DNA from: Terriglobia bacterium
Lineage (GTDB): Bacteria; Acidobacteriota; Terriglobia; Bryobacterales; Bryobacteraceae
Direction: 5' to 3'
NCBI GenBank assembly: GCA_025358575.1
Contig: JANYJA010000133.1
Span: 1 to 35,780 of the forward strand
Length of the DNA stretch: 35,780 bases
In this document: positions 26,881-33,407 of the stretch, piece by piece
How the letters are laid out: each line of letters opens with the position of its first letter
Position numbering within the stretch: the stretch's first letter is position 1
Notes under the pieces: model-generated
Database searches by the model: none
The model's input: the letters and a program-made list of their open reading frames with translations, nothing else
Told to the model about the DNA's origin: nothing
Made by a program: the position numbers and the translations under genes

Positions 26881-28491
26881 TCACACGCCCCAGCAATAGT
26901 CTTCGACCGCTTTATCGAGAGCCCCGTCTTCTTCAGTGATGCGCATCAATTCCAGACGAATCGCGTCGACCAGAGCGTTCCAGCTGGCTTCAATTACATC
27001 GTCTGACACGCCAACCGTGGACCAGCTTTTGCGATGATCGGACCACTCGACAAGGACGCGCACCTTTGCGGCCGTGCCTTTCTTCGGCTCAAGCACGCGG
27101 ACCTTATAATCCGTTAGTCGGACATCCGCAATCTGCGGATACAGTCCTGCCAGGCATTTGCGAAGACACAAATCCAGCGCGTGTACCGGGCCGTGCCCCG
27201 ACGCCGTAGCGGAGTGAACTCCGTCGAGCGCACTCAGATTCACGGTAGCGGTCGACCGCGTCGCCCCGCCCACACCGCTCTTCGTGACGACCTCATAATT
27301 TTCAACGGAAAAGAAGTGCTGTCCAGGCCGCAACGCTTCGCGGACCAGAAGCTCGAAAGTTCCCTCCGCGGCTTCCAGCTCGTAGCCGAGGTATTCCATC
27401 TCCTTAATGCGCTCTAGCAGTTCACGACGCGCTTCCTCGGTGAGACGATCGGCCAACCCGTGCTGACGAAGCTTGTATAGAACGTTGCCGCGACCGGATA
27501 GATCGCTCACCAGCACGCGCTGGCGATTGCCTACGGCTTCAGGCGAAATGTGCTCGTAGGTAGCCGAATCCTTCAACACCGCGCTGACGTGAATGCCGCC
27601 TTTGTGAGCAAAGGCGCTGTGACCCACGAAGGGCTGGTCACGCCTCAGCGGAAGATTCGCCAGCTCGGCAATGTAGCGGGTCACGCTCGCGAGCGTCGTC
27701 AGTTTTTCCGATCCGATGACCGTATGGCCCAGTTTCAATTCCAAATTGGCGATGATGGACGCGAGGTTCGCGTTGCCGCAGCGCTCGCCATATCCATTCA
27801 TGCAGCCCTGCACGTGCGTGGCGCCCTGCTCGATTGCGGCCAGCGCGTTCGCCACCGCGACATCGGAGTCATTATGCGGATGAATTCCGATCACTCCGTC
27901 AAAGCGCTTGCGGACCTCGCTCACAATTTCCGCCAGCCGCCCAGTCAGCGTGCCGCCGTTCGTATCGCAAAGACAAAGCACGTCGGCGCCAGCTTTTTGC
28001 GCCGCTTCGAGAGTGCGCAATGCAAAATCCGGATTGTCGATGTAACCATCGAAAAAATGCTCCGCGTCGTAAACTACTTCCCGGCCGTGATCTTTGATGA
28101 ACTGAACTGTCTCAAAAATCAGCGCCTGATTTTCAGCCTCCGTCACGCCTAGCGCGCGCGTGGTATGCAGTTCCCAGCTCTTCCCAAAAATGGAAACCAC
28201 CGGCGTATCGGCCTCAAGCAGCGCCGCGACATTGCGGTCTTCGTGCACCGGATTCTTGGCGAAACGAGTCGACCCGAAAGCCGTTAGCCGCGAGTGCTTA
28301 AGCCGCAGATCTTTCGCGCGGGAGAAAAATTCTTTGTCTTTCGGATTGGAACCGGGCCAGCCGCCTTCAATGTAATCGATGCCAAGCTCATCCAGTTTCT
28401 GCGCGATCAGCAGTTTGTCGTCAACTGAATAAGAGACAGACTCTCCCTGTGTTCCGTCCCGAAGCGTGGTATCGAACGTGGATATTCTCAT
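26881..28491 (-). CDS. cimA: citramalate synthase
   Basis: This 536-residue enzyme of the alpha-isopropylmalate/homocitrate synthase group matches CimA (TIGR00977-type). It condenses pyruvate and acetyl-CoA to (R)-citramalate, the route to 2-oxobutyrate and isoleucine that does not need threonine. The DRE-TIM barrel starts FDTTLRDGTQGE (6-17) and has the metal motif IHPHND, plus GYGERCGNANL. The C-terminal regulatory LeuA-type domain (about 395-520) is a known isoleucine-binding site in relatives. It belongs to the ilvBHC operon, 57 bases behind ilvC across a hairpin, which supports the CimA call over LeuA or homocitrate synthase. The start ATG (28491) is directly before MRISTFDTT, typical of the family. 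Confidence 0.94.
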   Translation of the reverse strand: MRISTFDTTLRDGTQGESVSYSVDDKLLIAQKLDELGIDYIEGGWPGSNPKDKEFFSRAKDLRLKHSRLTAFGSTRFAKNPVHEDRNVAALLEADTPVVSIFGKSWELHTTRALGVTEAENQALIFETVQFIKDHGREVVYDAEHFFDGYIDNPDFALRTLEAAQKAGADVLCLCDTNGGTLTGRLAEIVSEVRKRFDGVIGIHPHNDSDVAVANALAAIEQGATHVQGCMNGYGERCGNANLASIIANLELKLGHTVIGSEKLTTLASVTRYIAELANLPLRRDQPFVGHSAFAHKGGIHVSAVLKDSATYEHISPEAVGNRQRVLVSDLSGRGNVLYKLRQHGLADRLTEEARRELLERIKEMEYLGYELEAAEGTFELLVREALRPGQHFFSVENYEVVTKSGVGGATRSTATVNLSALDGVHSATASGHGPVHALDLCLRKCLAGLYPQIADVRLTDYKVRVLEPKKGTAAKVRVLVEWSDHRKSWSTVGVSDDVIEASWNALVDAIRLELMRITEEDGALDKAVEDYCWGV

Positions 28492-28548: not shown

Positions 28549-29607
28549 CTAAATTTTGGCTGCCAGCGCGGGTTCGTGTGCAGATGGCGCATCCTGCGGT
28601 ACGCCCGCTTCCTTTTTCTTTTTGAGGAAAGGCATCATGGAACGGAGTTCCTGCCCTACCTGTTCCAGTTGTTGTTCGCGCGCACCCTCGCGCATCGCGA
28701 GAAACTTCCCGCGCCCGGCTTTATTTTCCGCGATCCATTGGCGCGCGAATTCACCCGACTGGACTTCCCCGAGGATCTTGCGCATCTCCGCGCGCGTCTG
28801 CTCGTTCACGATGCGAGGTCCGCGAGTGTAATCGCCATATTCGGCGGTATCCGAAACCGAATAGCGCATGTAAGCCAATCCGCCCTCCTGAATCAGGTCG
28901 ACGATCAGCTTCAACTCGTGTAGGCATTCGAAGTAGGCTATCTCCGGCGCATAGCCGGCTTCCACCAGAGTCTCGAAACCCGCGCGAATCAGTTCGCTCA
29001 CGCCACCGCAGAGCACGGCCTGCTCTCCAAAAAGATCGCTTTCGGTCTCTTCCTTGAAATTTGTTTCGATCACGCCAGCCTTAAGACAACCGAGCGCCAG
29101 CGCGTAAGCCAGCGCGCGTTCATGCGCCTGTCCCGAAGGATTCTGGTGAACCGCAACCAGGCCCGGAACGCCGACGCCTTCGGTAAAGAGTTCGCGCACG
29201 CGATGCCCTGGCGCTTTGGGCGCGATCATGGAAACGTCCACATTCGCCGGCGCGGTGATCTGCCCGAAGTGAATATTAAAGCCGTGCGCGAACATCAGCG
29301 TCTTGCCGGCCGTCATGTGCGGCGCAATCTCATTGTTGTAGAGATCCGCTTGGATGTGGTCGGAAACCAGGATCATAACGATATCGGCGGCTTTGGCGGC
29401 CTCGCTCGTAGTCATGACCTTCAGCCCTGCGTCCTGAGCTTTGCTCCAAGACTTGCTTCCTTTATATAGGCCGACGACTACGTCGACTCCGGAATCGCGC
29501 AGGTTCAAAGCGTGCGCATGTCCCTGACTGCCGTAGCCGATAATCGCCACCGTGCGGCCCTTCAGGTGCGAGAGATTTCCGTCTTTTTCGTAGAAACGTT
29601 TAGCCAT
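28549..29607 (-). CDS. ilvC: ketol-acid reductoisomerase
   Basis: This class I enzyme of 352 residues converts acetolactate or acetohydroxybutyrate, with Mg2+ and NADPH, to the dihydroxy acid; it is the second common step in Val/Ile/Leu synthesis. It has the N-terminal Rossmann motif [21 protein letters not shown], the loop LYKGSKSW that usually selects NADPH, and the knotted C-terminal domain with [16 protein letters not shown] and [18 protein letters not shown], whose acidic residues bind the two Mg ions. The C-terminus carries about 20 extra hydrophilic residues ([24 protein letters not shown]). It starts eight bases inside ilvH, with GGAG six bases before the ATG, indicating coupling. It has full length and intact motifs. 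Confidence 0.97.
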
Positions 29608-30154
29608 TCAGAACTCCATCCACTTCTTCTAGTTTGGCAGCCGCTCGCGTGAGCACGGGGGGCTGCAGTTTTAACTTCTTGCCTTCCAGGGACACGCCGA
29701 CAACGCCGGAGCGGCTGACTTCGATTTCGCCATAACTGCGCATCACGCCAATGAACTCATCCAGCTTTTCGGGGTCGCCTGTAACCTCTAAGGCAAACCC
29801 GTCAACCGAAGAATCCACCACGCGCGCGCCGAATATTTCGGCTTCTTTCAAAACTGCCGTGCGGGATTCCTGCGGTGATCGTACCCGCAGCAGCAGCAGC
29901 TCGCGATTGACGGCCGGCGCATCAGTCAGGTCCGTCGCCTGCAGCACGTTGACCAATTTGTTCATTTGCTTGATGACTTGTGCCCGCAGCCGGTCTTCGA
30001 TATCGCAAACGATGGTCATGCGCGAAAGCTCAGGGTCAAGCGTGCGCGCCACGGTCAAACTTTCAATGTTGTAACCGCGGGCTGAGAGCAAGCCCGTGAC
30101 CCGAAGAAGCGCGCCGGGTTTGTTTTCAAGGTGAACCGAAATAATCTGCAGCAT
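29600..30154 (-). CDS. ilvH: acetolactate synthase small (regulatory) subunit
   Basis: This 184-residue regulatory subunit activates IlvB and confers feedback inhibition by valine. The N-terminal ACT domain is clear ([36 protein letters not shown]), followed by a C-terminal domain of the same family ending near [18 protein letters not shown]. The ATG at 30154 is used: it starts exactly at the ACT domain and is ten bases after the ilvB stop. A frame reaching back to 30298 reads through ilvB in another phase and is spurious. It overlaps ilvC by eight bases. Together the spacing indicates one transcript with ilvB and ilvC, starting from the attenuated leader. Confidence 0.96.
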
Positions 30155-30164
30155 ATCGTTTCGC

Positions 30165-31889
30165 CTAGACCGCCACCGGCACGGGCGGACCCAGCACCAT
30201 CTCATTGATCGCGCCGCCCGATGGCACCATCGGGTAGACGTTCTCGAACTGTGTAACTTTGACGTTGAGCAGATACGGGCCGGGCTCTTTGATCGCAATG
30301 TCGAGAGCGTCGGCTAGTTCCGAGGGCTTTTCAATCGTGCGGCCCTTGAAGCCGTAAGCTCCCGCAAGCTTTTCAGCATCGGGGAAGCAATCGAGGCGCA
30401 CCGAGCTGAGGCGGTTGTTGTAAAACAACTCCTGCCACTGCCGGACCATGCCGAGATGGCCGTTGTTCATAACGATGATTTTGATGGGAAGCCCGTTGCT
30501 CGCGATGGTGCCCAGTTCGGGGATAGACATCTGAAAGCCGCCATCGCCCACAATCGCAAACACCAGTTTGTCGGGGCGCGCGAATTGTGCACCGATCGCC
30601 GCGGGCAGCCCGAACCCCATTGCGCCAAGACCACCCGAATTGATCCAAAGCCGGGGATGATTGAAGCGCACTAATTGCGCCGTCCACATTTGGTGCTGCC
30701 CTACGTCGGTGGTGACGATCGCTTCGCCCGCTGAAAGTCTGTCGATTTCAGAAATGAGATGCTGCGGTTTGATCTCCGTTTCGGAACGGCTCTTGTCATA
30801 CGGATGTTCTTTTGCCCAATCGCGCACCTGCTGCCGCCATGCAGCGCGAGGCGCGGTATTGCGCGAACCGTGCTCACCTTTCATTTCACCAAGATTGCGG
30901 TTCAACTTCTGCAGCACGCGCTTCACGTCTCCCACGATCGGGATATCGGGTATGCGATTCTTGGCAATTTCCGCCGGATCGATGTCCACGTGAATCACGC
31001 GCGCATTCGGCGCGAAAGCCGCTAAGCGTCCGGTTACGCGATCGTCAAATCGCACGCCCAGCGCGATCAGCAGATCGCAATTCGAAATCCCCATATTCGC
31101 CGCGTAACTGCCATGCATTCCGGGCATGCTGACGAAGTTCGGGTGATTGGAAGGCAGCGCGCCAAGACCCATCAGGGTGCAGACTGCCGGCATATCCACC
31201 ATTTCGACCAGTTCGCGCAGTTCGCCGTCAGCGCCCGAAGCGATTACGCCGCCGCCGGCGTAAACAAACGGCCTTTCCGCTTCCCAGATCATCTGCGCGG
31301 CTCTTCGAATCTGGCCCGCGTGCCCTTCCGTGAAAACCTTATAACCGGGAAGGTGAATGGTATCCACCGGCGTGTAGTGGCCCGTCGCTTGGAATACATC
31401 CTTCGGAATATCGATAAGCACCGGGCCCGGACGTCCGCTCGACGCGATATAAAAAGCTTCGTGCACGATTTTCGGAAGTTCCGCCAGCGTTTTCACAAGA
31501 TAGTTGTGCTTGGTGCAGGCGCGCGTGATGCCAAACGTGTCGGCTTCCTGAAACGCGTCGCTGCCGATGAGCTTGGTCGAAACCTGGCCGGTGATAGCAA
31601 CAATCGGGATCGAATCCATCATGGAATCGACCAGCCCGGTTACCAGGTTAGTCGCGCCGGGGCCTGAAGTCGCGCAGCACACTCCGACCTTGCCCGTAGC
31701 CCGGGCGTATCCTTCGGCGGCGAAGCAGGCGTTCTCTTCGTGGCGAACCAGCACATGCTTGATCGGATGATCGTAAAGCGCGTCATAGAGAGGGAGCGTG
31801 ACGCCGCCCGGATAGCCGAAAAAACAATCGACTTCTTCCCGAACCAGACATTCGAGCAGGATCTGGGCACCATTCATTAAGGTAGACAT
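30165..31889 (-). CDS. ilvB: acetolactate synthase large (catalytic) subunit
   Basis: This 574-residue thiamine-diphosphate enzyme makes acetolactate from two pyruvates, or acetohydroxybutyrate from pyruvate and 2-oxobutyrate. Domain order is TPP-binding N (about 5-170, with FGYPGG and catalytic E51 in VRHEENACFAAEGYARATG), a central FAD-binding domain (about 195-330), and TPP-binding C (about 380-530, VGDGGFQMSIPELGTIASNGLPIKIIVMNN with the GDG...NN pattern). I chose ATG 31889; 31877 is an alternative. A GTG at 31922 in frame lies inside the attenuator stem and would put extra residues before the family start. No strong ribosome site is seen. It is the first structural gene after the Ile/Val leader peptide. 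Confidence 0.97.
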   Translation of the reverse strand: MSTLMNGAQILLECLVREEVDCFFGYPGGVTLPLYDALYDHPIKHVLVRHEENACFAAEGYARATGKVGVCCATSGPGATNLVTGLVDSMMDSIPIVAITGQVSTKLIGSDAFQEADTFGITRACTKHNYLVKTLAELPKIVHEAFYIASSGRPGPVLIDIPKDVFQATGHYTPVDTIHLPGYKVFTEGHAGQIRRAAQMIWEAERPFVYAGGGVIASGADGELRELVEMVDMPAVCTLMGLGALPSNHPNFVSMPGMHGSYAANMGISNCDLLIALGVRFDDRVTGRLAAFAPNARVIHVDIDPAEIAKNRIPDIPIVGDVKRVLQKLNRNLGEMKGEHGSRNTAPRAAWRQQVRDWAKEHPYDKSRSETEIKPQHLISEIDRLSAGEAIVTTDVGQHQMWTAQLVRFNHPRLWINSGGLGAMGFGLPAAIGAQFARPDKLVFAIVGDGGFQMSIPELGTIASNGLPIKIIVMNNGHLGMVRQWQELFYNNRLSSVRLDCFPDAEKLAGAYGFKGRTIEKPSELADALDIAIKEPGPYLLNVKVTQFENVYPMVPSGGAINEMVLGPPVPVAV

Positions 31890-31910
31890 AGAATATTCGT
31901 TCGTATCAAC

Positions 31911-31953
31911 AAAAAAGGCCACCAGCCGGGTTAGTTGCTCCCCGCTGATGGCC
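31911..31953 (-). terminator. attenuator (intrinsic terminator) of the ilvBHC-cimA operon
   Basis: Minus-strand arms at 31953-31940 (GGCCATCAGCGGGG) and 31930-31917 (CCCGGCTGGTGGCC) pair with one G-T wobble and one mismatch over 14 bases, loop nine bases, followed by six T (31916-31911). It lies between the leader peptide and the ilvB start, so it is an attenuator and not the end of an upstream gene. Confidence 0.9.
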
Positions 31954-31981
31954 TCGGAAAATCCGAAGACCTCAAGCGGGG
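31940..31981 (-). promoter_or_regulatory. antiterminator structure of the ilv leader
   Basis: CCCCGCT (31981-31975), overlapping the end of the leader peptide just before its TGA, is complementary over seven bases to AGCGGGG (31946-31940), which is part of the terminator's left arm. The two pairings exclude each other. A nested hairpin CTTCGGA-TTT-TCCGAGG (31969-31952) fits inside the loop. A ribosome held at the Ile/Val codons frees CCCCGCT to pair and allows readthrough; one that reaches the stop covers it and lets the terminator form. Confidence 0.78.
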
Positions 31982-32058
31982 CCGGCTACGATGACCGTAA
32001 TAATGACAGAAATGAAGCTCTGCGCTGGATAACAACGAAATGTACGCGCGGAGATCAT
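31972..32058 (-). CDS. ilv operon leader peptide (attenuation peptide, Ile/Val-rich)
   Basis: This is a 28-residue open frame (ATG 32058, TGA 31974-31972). After MISARTFRCYPAQSF, residues 16-24 read ISVIITVIV, seven Ile/Val codons out of nine, with no Leu in the peptide. Only two residues lie between the Ile/Val run and AGPA plus stop. Together with the terminator and antiterminator that follow, this matches the classical ribosome-mediated attenuation scheme known for ilv operons of Enterobacteria: low charged tRNA-Ile or tRNA-Val stalls the ribosome and prevents termination. Its own start has no ribosome site; a promoter (TTGCAT-17-TACACT) predicts transcription beginning five bases before the ATG, so translation may be leaderless. 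It is too short to be called by usual gene finders. Confidence 0.85.
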   Translation of the reverse strand: MISARTFRCYPAQSFISVIITVIVAGPA

Positions 32059-32069
32059 CACTTGAAGAG

Positions 32070-32098
32070 AGTGTACATTGAAAGTTTTGGAAATGCAA
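32070..32098 (-). promoter_or_regulatory. promoter of the ilv leader/operon
   Basis: Minus-strand TTGCAT (32098-32093), 17-base spacer, TACACT (32075-32070). Expected transcription start is about 32063, five bases before the leader peptide ATG. Its -35 box touches that of the divergent promoter. Confidence 0.7.
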
Positions 32099-32115
32099 GA
32101 TAATCTTTGTATAAA
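32087..32115 (+). promoter_or_regulatory. promoter of the amidohydrolase gene
   Basis: TTGGAA (32087-32092), 17-base spacer, TATAAA (32110-32115), an almost standard sigma-70-type promoter, in a locally AT-rich stretch. Transcription would start near 32122, about 29 bases before the GTG start of the amidohydrolase. The -35 boxes of the two divergent promoters are adjacent, so RNA polymerase binding at one should hinder the other. Confidence 0.7.
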
Positions 32116-32150
32116 TATTTGTAATGTTCTCGGGTTGCTAATCTAAGCTC

Positions 32151-33407
32151 GTGCGCATCGCCCTCCTGTTTCTTGTACCTCCCCTCTTTTCTCAGACCCT
32201 CCTTCTCACCAACGCTCACGTGATTGATCCGAAAAATCACATTGACGCCATTGCCGACGTCGCCATCACGGACGGCAGAATCAGCGCTCTCGGACCGCCG
32301 CATCTCCCGCGGGTCGCCAAGACTATCGACCTGACGGGGCTTTATCTTACGCCCGGACTTGTTGACATCCACACGCATCTCTTCACCACCACCAACGTCC
32401 ATAACGCGTGGGCCGGTGACCAGAGCATCATGCCAGATAGCTTCAGCTTCCGCACGGGAGTGACGACTATGGTCGACGCGGGCTCCGCCGGCTGGCGCAA
32501 CTTCGAGGATTTCCGTGTAACCGTGATCGACCGGGTAAAGACCCGCGTGTTCGCCTTCATCAATATTGCCGGTCTCGGGATGATGACCAACGCGGCCGAG
32601 CAGCAGCCTTCCGAATTCAACCCGAAAGAAGTTGCGCGTCTCGCCCGTAAGCACCACGACGTCGTCGTCGGCATCAAAACGGCTCACTATGAAGCACCCG
32701 ATTGGACCTCCGTCGATCGGGCGGTGGAAGCCGGCACACTTGCCGACTTACCCGTGATGGTGGATTTCGGATTCTTCCGCGCGGAGCGACCCTATTGGCA
32801 GCTGGTCACTCAAAAACTCCGGCCCGGGGACATCAGCACGCACTTTTTTCGGGCCACGGTCCCGTTTGTCGACGCCAACGGGAAGCTCTACGACTATCTC
32901 GCGCAAGCTCGCGCGCGCGGCGTCCGGTTCGATGTCGGACACGGCGGCGGCAGCTTCGTTTTCCGCAACGCCGTCCCCGCGATCCAGCAAGGCTTCTACC
33001 CGGATTCCATCTCCAGCGATCTGCATGGCGGAAGCATGAATGCTGGTATGCAGGATATGCCCGCGCTCATCTCCAAAATGTTGGCGTGCGGACTCCCTTT
33101 GAATGACGCAATTCTTGAATCCACCTGGACGCCGGCGCAGATGATTCATCACCCGGAGCTAGGCCATCTCAGTGTCGGTGCTTCGGCCGATATCGCGGTC
33201 TGGAGCATCGCTTCGGGCGATTTTGGTTTTGAGGATTCAAGTGGCGGACGGTTGAAAGGCACGCGCCGTCTCACGTCCGAAATGACCCTGCACAATGGCG
33301 AAATCATGTGGGATCGCAACGCGCGCTCGGCAGTTGACTATAAAACTCTTGGCCCCGGTTACGGCAACCGGCCTGGCGTTGACATTGTCGTTGCGCCTCC
33401 CAAATAA
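32151..33407 (+). CDS. amidohydrolase/deacetylase family metallohydrolase, probably secreted
   Basis: This 418-residue amidohydrolase-superfamily enzyme starts at GTG and has a short hydrophobic lead (MRIALLFLVPPLFSQ), suggesting export. Metal-binding H74-T-H76 sits in TPGLVDIHTHLFTT; K176 in VVGIKTAHYEAP is the likely carboxylated lysine. FDVGHGGGSF holds a further histidine and SISSDLHGGSMN the Asp. The C-terminal beta part (STWTPAQMIHHPELGHLSVGASADIAVWSI) is the classical ending. The closest described group is the Atu3266/EF0837-type deacetylases and D-aminoacylase-like enzymes, acting on N-acyl amino acids or similar amides; the exact substrate is unknown. It is divergent from the ilv operon with abutting promoters and is followed 27 bases later by an M13 peptidase. 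Confidence 0.88.
   Translation: MRIALLFLVPPLFSQTLLLTNAHVIDPKNHIDAIADVAITDGRISALGPPHLPRVAKTIDLTGLYLTPGLVDIHTHLFTTTNVHNAWAGDQSIMPDSFSFRTGVTTMVDAGSAGWRNFEDFRVTVIDRVKTRVFAFINIAGLGMMTNAAEQQPSEFNPKEVARLARKHHDVVVGIKTAHYEAPDWTSVDRAVEAGTLADLPVMVDFGFFRAERPYWQLVTQKLRPGDISTHFFRATVPFVDANGKLYDYLAQARARGVRFDVGHGGGSFVFRNAVPAIQQGFYPDSISSDLHGGSMNAGMQDMPALISKMLACGLPLNDAILESTWTPAQMIHHPELGHLSVGASADIAVWSIASGDFGFEDSSGGRLKGTRRLTSEMTLHNGEIMWDRNARSAVDYKTLGPGYGNRPGVDIVVAPPK

Follow-up and report, generated by a model that had tools for sequence, protein, structure and literature searches.

In Escherichia coli, the ivbL–ilvBN and ilvL–ilvGMEDA attenuators share a plan consisting of a run of branched-chain codons, a stop codon near alternative stems, and a terminator with its U run. 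Comparable arrangements have been described before ilvB in other groups. The Corynebacterium ilvB-II motif (the ilvBNC leader) comprises a branched-chain-rich upstream open reading frame (uORF) and a terminator stem before ilvB, and for the ilvB-OMG and ilvB (Leptospira) motifs, also located before ilvB, the uORFs are putative ones in which branched-chain (and Thr) codons abound, ilvB-OMG being reported from “various bacterial phyla” (PMC10272879). Candidate attenuators before ilvB in Actinobacteria consist of short ORFs with Ile/Val/Leu runs that overlap terminators, and codon changes in a similar ilvB leader of Streptomyces coelicolor were reportedly without effect, a result that counts against the mechanism considered here (PMC1262725). 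Korolev et al. count Acidobacteria leader genes by distance, and their main text contains no “ilv” (PMC4833913).

The leader analyzed here lies in a 35,780-nucleotide stretch of DNA (hereafter, the window) from a Terriglobia bacterium of the order Bryobacterales. A sequence-only reading had proposed that a complete Ile/Val attenuator occupies 32058–31911, and every part that it named was found there, on the minus strand and ahead of ilvB–ilvH–ilvC–cimA (Table 1); its 14-base terminator stem does have 14 bases in each arm, but one internal G·G mismatch leaves 13 pairs. The same reading knew of no description of such a leader in Acidobacteriota. This agrees with searches of the open literature on attenuation and leader peptides in Acidobacteria, which listed no such attenuator, but that scope does not extend to subscription work, notably the survey by Lopatovskaya et al. 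(2010). Searches of the open literature on citramalate synthase and attenuation, and broader ones, likewise yielded no such description. Ribosome-mediated attenuation is itself already known; what lifts the present finding is a set of recoded copies of the module in relatives of the window's organism.

Table 1. Coordinates of the leader, its predicted promoter and the operon behind it, in window positions.
Feature	Position	Strand	Basis or remark
−35 hexamer TTGCAT, predicted promoter	32093..32098	−	Sequence and motif in relatives
−10 hexamer TACACT, predicted	32070..32075	−	17-nt spacer to TTGCAT
Leader peptide ORF	31972..32058	−	28 codons + TGA, MISARTFRCYPAQSFISVIITVIVAGPA; frame conserved in relatives
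Leader start and stop codons	ATG 32058-32056; TGA 31974-31972	−	Sequence
Ile/Val control codons ATT TCT GTC ATT ATT ACG GTC ATC GTA	31987..32013	−	Run reads ISVIITVIV
Antiterminator 5′ arm CCCCGCT	31975..31981	−	Last seven bases before TGA
Antiterminator 3′ arm AGCGGGG	31940..31946	−	Overlaps terminator 5′ arm, pairs with CCCCGCT
Terminator 5′ arm	31940..31953	−	Fold and covariation
Terminator 3′ arm	31917..31930	−	Fold and covariation
U6 tract of intrinsic terminator	31911..31916	−	Sequence
ilvB, acetolactate synthase large subunit	30165..31889	−	TIGR00118; ATG 31889-31887
ilvH, acetolactate synthase small subunit	29600..30310	−	TIGR00119 / NF008864; start codon provisional
ilvC, ketol-acid reductoisomerase	28549..29607	−	NCBIfam
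cimA, citramalate synthase (first step to Ile from pyruvate)	26881..28491	−	TIGR00977

The leader element in the window

We consider it very probable, from the sequence and its comparison with relatives, that ilvB–ilvH–ilvC–cimA is governed by this leader through ribosome-mediated transcription attenuation, with the charging of Ile- and Val-tRNA as the signal sensed. The four operon genes were named by NCBIfam. The four closest named relatives of IlvB (74–75% identity) come from Acidobacteria MAGs, two of them labelled Bryobacterales, and the next ones stand at 55%. An amidohydrolase gene (32151–33407, plus strand) runs divergently from the ilv operon, and the two have in common a short intergenic region that contains the predicted attenuator promoter.

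The leader peptide ends in VIITVIVAGPA before its stop codon, and an in-frame GTG (32061–32059, minus strand) directly 5′ of the ATG is a possible alternative start. Compared with shuffled sequences, the whole leader has a fold z of −5.0, with 0 of 200 shuffles as stable, and for the 88-nt segment from 31990 by itself the excess is smaller (z −2.8, with 3 shuffles in 200 as stable). The antiterminator segment has a folding energy of −28.3 kcal/mol and the terminator segment one of −28.8 kcal/mol. A simple promoter and terminator scan, the rules of which admit terminator loops of 3–8 bases and near-consensus hexamers, reported neither the attenuator promoter nor its terminator; the sole terminator-like site that it returned, at 32261–32244, lies away from the attenuator.

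Distribution among relatives

Regions upstream of ilvB were taken from relatives chosen by IlvB homology alone. From the 113 loci examined, 84 were kept because they have a short ORF rich in Ile and Val codons with a U tract behind it, and 29 were left out; L166, L181, L184, and L187, which belong to other families, were excluded by hand despite a passing score. The 84 leaders, made up of 83 of the 97 loci L081–L177 and the named locus L002, represent the window's family and two other families of its order. Alignment A1 holds 83 of them (L087 omitted), and training alignment A2 holds 46, with 38 irregular or near-duplicate leaders omitted. The covariance model R1, built from 46 leaders, begins 10 bases before the stop codon, so the codon run is not in the model.

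R1 matches 86 of the 97 ilvB loci, and because it recurs at so many ilvB loci of relatives, the element is not a product of chance. No match was obtained at L084, L103, L118, L163, L164, L165, L166, L169, L175, L176, and L177, among which L165 and L166 come from other families of the class. At E values up to 0.01, the model matches 213 of 250 genomes of the order. In the organism's own genome the ilvB site is the sole significant match (E 1.5e-16), with four others at E 0.2–0.5. Among 396 genomes across the phylum, 23 are matched, 20 of them outside the family and all but one of these at E above 1e-4. Elsewhere in the class, 15 ilvB loci belonging to other families were scanned and none has a match better than E 0.03, and the named Bryobacterales locus L003 has no match. 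The attenuator is not essential to the ilv operon, given these 15 loci and the 11 of 97 that lack it.

The predicted promoter also has counterparts in relatives. The pattern TTG[CT]-N18-20-TANN[CA]T, which was defined after inspection of a scan and whose count is hence descriptive, occurs 5′ of the leader in 70 of the 84, against a shuffled mean of 2.7. When total sigma-70 scores were scanned instead, 18 of 84 leaders stood out against 13.6 in shuffles, which is not a clear enrichment. Transcription is predicted to start a few nucleotides 5′ of the leader start codon; in the window, the GTG and ATG follow TACACT by 8 and 11 nt, and in 28 of the 70 motif-bearing leaders the first in-frame start codon stands 6–7 nt past the −10 box, a spacing like that of leaderless messages; leader peptides translated from such messages are known from other systems. 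The sequence-only reading had regarded transcription starting downstream of 31911 as fatal to its proposal, and the upstream position of the motif speaks against such a start.

Two mutually exclusive stems

Both hairpins form in 81 of the 84 leaders. In 83 of 84, pairing in the terminator takes in at least 7 of the 10 nucleotides that directly precede the U run (the mean z being −5.0), and so an intrinsic terminator with a U run, one of the marks of an attenuator, lies between the leader and the first gene. RNAalifold recovers this terminator from 83 leaders, with 7 of its 12 pairs changed on both sides, and in the 46 rows of A2, 97.8% of terminator cells are paired and 48 double changes are seen versus 12.5 in shuffles.

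For the antiterminator, A2 gives 96.3% paired cells in the outer helix and 51.1% in the inner helix, or 80.4% in all, compared with at most 54.0% in controls with slid columns; its 11 double changes are more than the 5.0 of the shuffles and fewer than the 13 of a control slid by −3 columns. In a terminator-fitted alignment of 90 loci (the best match per locus, 90 of 105 rows, the rest being second or opposite-strand matches), 90.9% of antiterminator cells are paired versus 87.5% shuffled (maximum of 1000 shuffles, 88.9) and 19 double changes stand against 7.5 (maximum 15). Compensating arm pairs in relatives include CCTCGCC/GGCGAGG, GCCTGCT/AGCAGGC, and CCCCGGC/GCCGGGG. The relatives thus share with the window an antiterminator that excludes the terminator and whose 5′ arm would be covered by a ribosome at the stop codon.

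Reading frame and control codons

The initial ORFs were picked by Ile/Val count, which biases the codon statistics of the 84 leaders, and a test anchored on R1 is free of that choice. A stop codon occurs at the R1-predicted place in 83 of 86 loci, and frames read back from this fixed stop contain at least four Ile or Val in codons −15 to −5 (11 codons) in 82 of 83, which is to say that an end-product codon run stands in a conserved frame. Across these codons, Ile and Val together account for 59.6% in the leader frame versus 1.2% and 2.3% in the other two, which hold 125 and 21 stops where the leader frame has none. The sequence-only reading had proposed, as a check, to look in related genomes for the Ile/Val frame, the position of the stop codon, and compensatory changes in both stems, and the relatives show all three.

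In the 84 leaders, with the above bias in their codon statistics, Leu makes up 8.1% of codons −15 to −5 against 8.8% in ilvB, a background level on which a third, Leu-sensing input to operon-type leaders was rejected; the earlier proposal of control by Ile and Val only accordingly holds for cimA-containing operons. Neither is Thr enriched (2.8% vs. 4.3% in ilvB). The control positions use codons that are rare in ilvB: GTA constitutes 56% of leader Val codons versus 6% in ilvB, GTG 4% versus 47%, and ATT 62% of leader Ile codons versus 22%. Ile is most often used at codons −9 and −10, and Val is found at −7 in 75 of 84 leaders. The GTA at codon −5 (31989–31987 in the window) is near-invariant (66 of 84), although a stall there favors the terminator.

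Ribosome geometry and proposed mechanism

Folding was computed with an imposed ribosome footprint that, counted from the first base of the A-site codon, reaches 17 nt upstream and 12 nt downstream. While the last strand has yet to emerge, the antiterminator forms in 77 of 84 leaders for a stall at −9 and in 74 of 84 for a stall at −7. For a ribosome at −5 or on the stop codon it forms in none, as the footprint at these positions masks the arm by construction, and the terminator forms in 79 of 84 when the stop codon is occupied. Once the whole leader is out and at equilibrium, a ribosome at −9 still leaves the terminator ahead of the antiterminator in 62 of 84 leaders, so the model needs co-transcriptional folding, that is, timing. 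In the whole window leader, the antiterminator wins with the ribosome at −9 (0.89) but not at −7 (0.33). It also forms in the window without a ribosome (0.93), a fold in which no protector hairpin was seen of the kind that brings about termination without translation in trp and his leaders, and an untranslated window leader would therefore give read-through. Without a ribosome and before strand 4, the antiterminator exceeds 0.5 in 55 of 84 leaders.

From this arrangement we infer the transcription start site, ribosome stalling, and termination as follows. RNA polymerase would start a few nucleotides before the leader ORF, with a ribosome following. When Ile or Val is short, the ribosome would stall in the ATT/GTC run, at least seven codons before the stop, leaving CCCCGCT to pair with AGCGGGG; the antiterminator so formed would hold the terminator 5′ arm, and transcription would continue into ilvB. 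With ample supplies of Ile and Val, the ribosome would instead reach the stop codon and cover the antiterminator arm, whereupon the terminator could form and RNA polymerase would stop at U6.

Copied and recoded modules

A second search, followed by reading of the sites, covered the genomes with at least two R1 matches and four more; weaker matches (e.g., G041 C29, G075 C147, G607 C353, and G637 C306) lay outside this site reading. In 15 genomes, a copy of the module stands directly 5′ of a separate cimA, with leaders such as MLILVQGGIIISVAITGPA and MLTFLSIGIIIGAGITSPA. An ilvB leader was also read in 12 of these 15 split genomes (e.g., MNRLQPVVALVVVVLNGTA and MNLSRIVVALFVVVVVGTA), and in the other three no R1 match was seen at ilvB. 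With operon status assigned by hand, starts of typed leaders chosen by eye, and eight of the 84 leaders (cimA position unknown or off the contig) as well as L002 omitted, the 72 ilvB leaders with cimA in the operon contain, per 13 codons, 3.38 Ile, 3.76 Val, and 0.97 Leu; the 12 ilvB leaders of split genomes contain 0.42, 4.92, and 2.67; and the 15 cimA leaders contain 4.13, 0.80, and 2.07. The difference in Ile between operon-type and split ilvB leaders has a Mann–Whitney p of 2e-7, uncorrected for descent, and eight operon-type leaders have no more than one Ile. Base composition is not the cause of the codon contrast, because cimA and ilvB leaders of the same genome differ. Among the Val codons that remain in cimA leaders, 11 of 12 are GTG, probably one inherited codon, and in nine split ilvB leaders GTG is 4 of 41. 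The link drawn by the sequence-only reading between cimA and Ile codons is strengthened: in the split clade, the ilvB leader is almost free of Ile and cimA has an Ile leader of its own.

All four split loci with enough sequence (L118, L122, L124, and L129) have an ilvBHC cluster without cimA behind it. An IlvB tree groups the split genomes as a single clade within the family (11 rows, SH-aLRT 100), for which a single event suffices; on this sequence comparison, cimA within the operon appears the likelier older state. With a stall at −9, the antiterminator exceeds 0.7 in 13 of 15 cimA leaders and in 9 of 9 split ilvB leaders, and both stems are thus predicted still to form in the two kinds of copies.

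Further copies precede other genes. A Leu-rich one stands before leuA in G643 (GILNLSLLALGLLTGPA), in this one genome only, which has a contamination estimate of 5%; G008 and G079 have copies before a small-subunit-like gene with about 40% identity to IlvH (IVIQNAAIIIAAPV); and G002 has one (VVLLLNNIAIPVITIRGPA) before a small ACT-domain-like protein, named by eye. An Ile-containing leader lies before cimA on another contig in G616, whose own ilvB leader still has Ile, and it neither supports nor refutes the split; the copy on G082 C305 ends at the contig end, with the downstream gene beyond it. A family-wide leuA attenuator was rejected, as 17 leuA loci gave a best R1 match of E 0.008 and no Leu-rich short ORF. 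Other second matches, at E 1e-5 to 5e-3, were set aside as chance terminators without leader or ilv context (two in G660; G674 C316, G635 C418, G578 C42, G543 C46, G544 C68, G651, G641 C128, G001 C35, G060 C26, and G662 C375).

The control codons correspond to the products of the controlled genes: Ile and Val for ilvB with cimA, Ile for cimA alone, Val/Leu for ilvB without cimA, and Leu for leuA (one genome). Such tracking of the controlled gene by codon identity would amount to a natural codon-swap experiment and is consistent with a single evolutionary event. We think it likely that in one clade the module was copied as cimA left the ilv operon, that selection then split the signal, so that the cimA copy retained Ile but shed most of its Val and the ilvB copy retained Val/Leu but shed Ile, and that further copies were taken up by leuA and small-subunit-like genes, making the module a portable switch whose input is rewritten by codons while its stems are kept. 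What appears to be new here is the cimA-specific copy of the module, with an Ile-rich, Val-poor leader, beside a Val/Leu-rich ilvB leader in one clade. With the recoded leaders, the part that codon identity and codon rarity play in setting an attenuator's input can be tested with no need to design mutants.

Alternative explanations

Could the leader be an arrest peptide, with ribosome stalling caused by the nascent chain and not by hungry codons? Its end, IVAGP, resembles that of SecM, which is IRAGP, and a Gly-Pro-Ala-stop ending is frequent (G in 53, P in 71, and A in 70 of 84). The conserved letters, however, are those of the antiterminator arm, which changes with its partner arm whatever peptide results: leaders with changed arms end in GLA, RPA, or SPG, those of the split clade in GTA, RTA, or STA among others, and GP is preceded in most cases by Ala, Pro, or Ser, and by Arg in 5 of 84. 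An arrest peptide is accordingly very improbable. A constitutive terminator with a short ORF and no regulation, acting in damping or with the ORF aiding re-initiation, would agree with the success of the terminator over the antiterminator at equilibrium in most relatives. It would leave unexplained why an antiterminator arm covaries with the terminator 5′ arm, why the Ile/Val codons are rare ones, and why the codons of cimA and ilvB leaders contrast within one genome, and we give it hardly any weight.

A conserved, structured RNA before ilvB could also be a ligand-binding riboswitch or a T-box that happens to carry an accidental ORF, and some ilvB genes elsewhere are under ppGpp riboswitches (PMC10272879). 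Yet no Rfam family reaches its gathering score in 17 loci, window positions 31700–32300 give only chance Rfam matches at E up to 10, and the T-box model (RF00230) has no match in the organism's own genome at E up to 0.001 and none in that stretch of the window; the T-box and the other Rfam families were rejected on these results. The reading frame, moreover, is conserved as much as the RNA, whose segment joining the two antiterminator arms differs among loci both in length and in sequence, which makes a riboswitch or T-box a most unlikely source of the element. For the attenuator, the parts and their conservation, covariation, and exclusivity, along with the link between leader codons and controlled gene, are established by sequence and comparison.

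Other leaders in the phylum and comparison with known systems

Leaders of similar plan and other sequence occur elsewhere in the phylum. A test of 40 ilvB loci from other families, one of the 40 being just 178 bases long, found such leaders before ilvB in 5; its antisense control gave 0 of 40 and its sensitivity was 67 of 84. These five, each with an Ile/Val/Leu-rich leader and a terminator, are L336 (f70), L343 (f31), L354 (f49), and L355 and L358 (f42). Read by eye, L203 (f34) likewise has an Ile/Val/Leu-rich leader and a terminator before ilvB, with another stem sequence. A different attenuator-like leader is found in f38, where L210 has LLPVIVGIVIIVNIAVLTGIPRFG, a stop, and then a terminator; the gene order there is leader, ilvH-like gene, then ilvC (L201) or an ilvB-like gene (L208 and L210), the leaders having been read by eye in L201 and L210 and that of L208 left out. 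About 110 nt before ilvB in L184 (f7), a Val-run ORF, RKIVVVVRPVCASWPGGRD, and its stop are followed by a strong terminator of other sequence with no R1 match, possibly an unrelated Val attenuator. L199 (f70) has an R1 match at E 1.5e-4, with a possible leader ending in VTIMISAMTPGGGDG and a good terminator, before an unassigned gene. Five of six loci of f6, another family of the class (L178, L179, L181, L182, and L183), and L038, from a named groundwater Acidobacteria bacterium, have in place of the attenuator a conserved palindrome like ACCGACTGGTCGGT before ilvB, which we take to resemble the operator of a TetR-type repressor.

The window leader follows the same plan as E. coli ivbL and ilvL. 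It differs from them in that its operon includes cimA, it shows no enrichment of Leu, its antiterminator arm runs as far as the stop codon, and no protector hairpin was found; in addition, 28 of the 70 motif-bearing leaders here have their first in-frame start codon 6–7 nt after the −10 box. The ilvB-OMG and Leptospira ilvB motifs are described with Thr codons (PMC10272879), which are not enriched here. The Actinobacteria ilvB candidates have a like plan, but their ORF is described as overlapping the terminator hairpin (PMC1262725). The Corynebacterium ilvB-II leader is described with a similar uORF and terminator plan (PMC10272879); the present element has conserved arms of its own.
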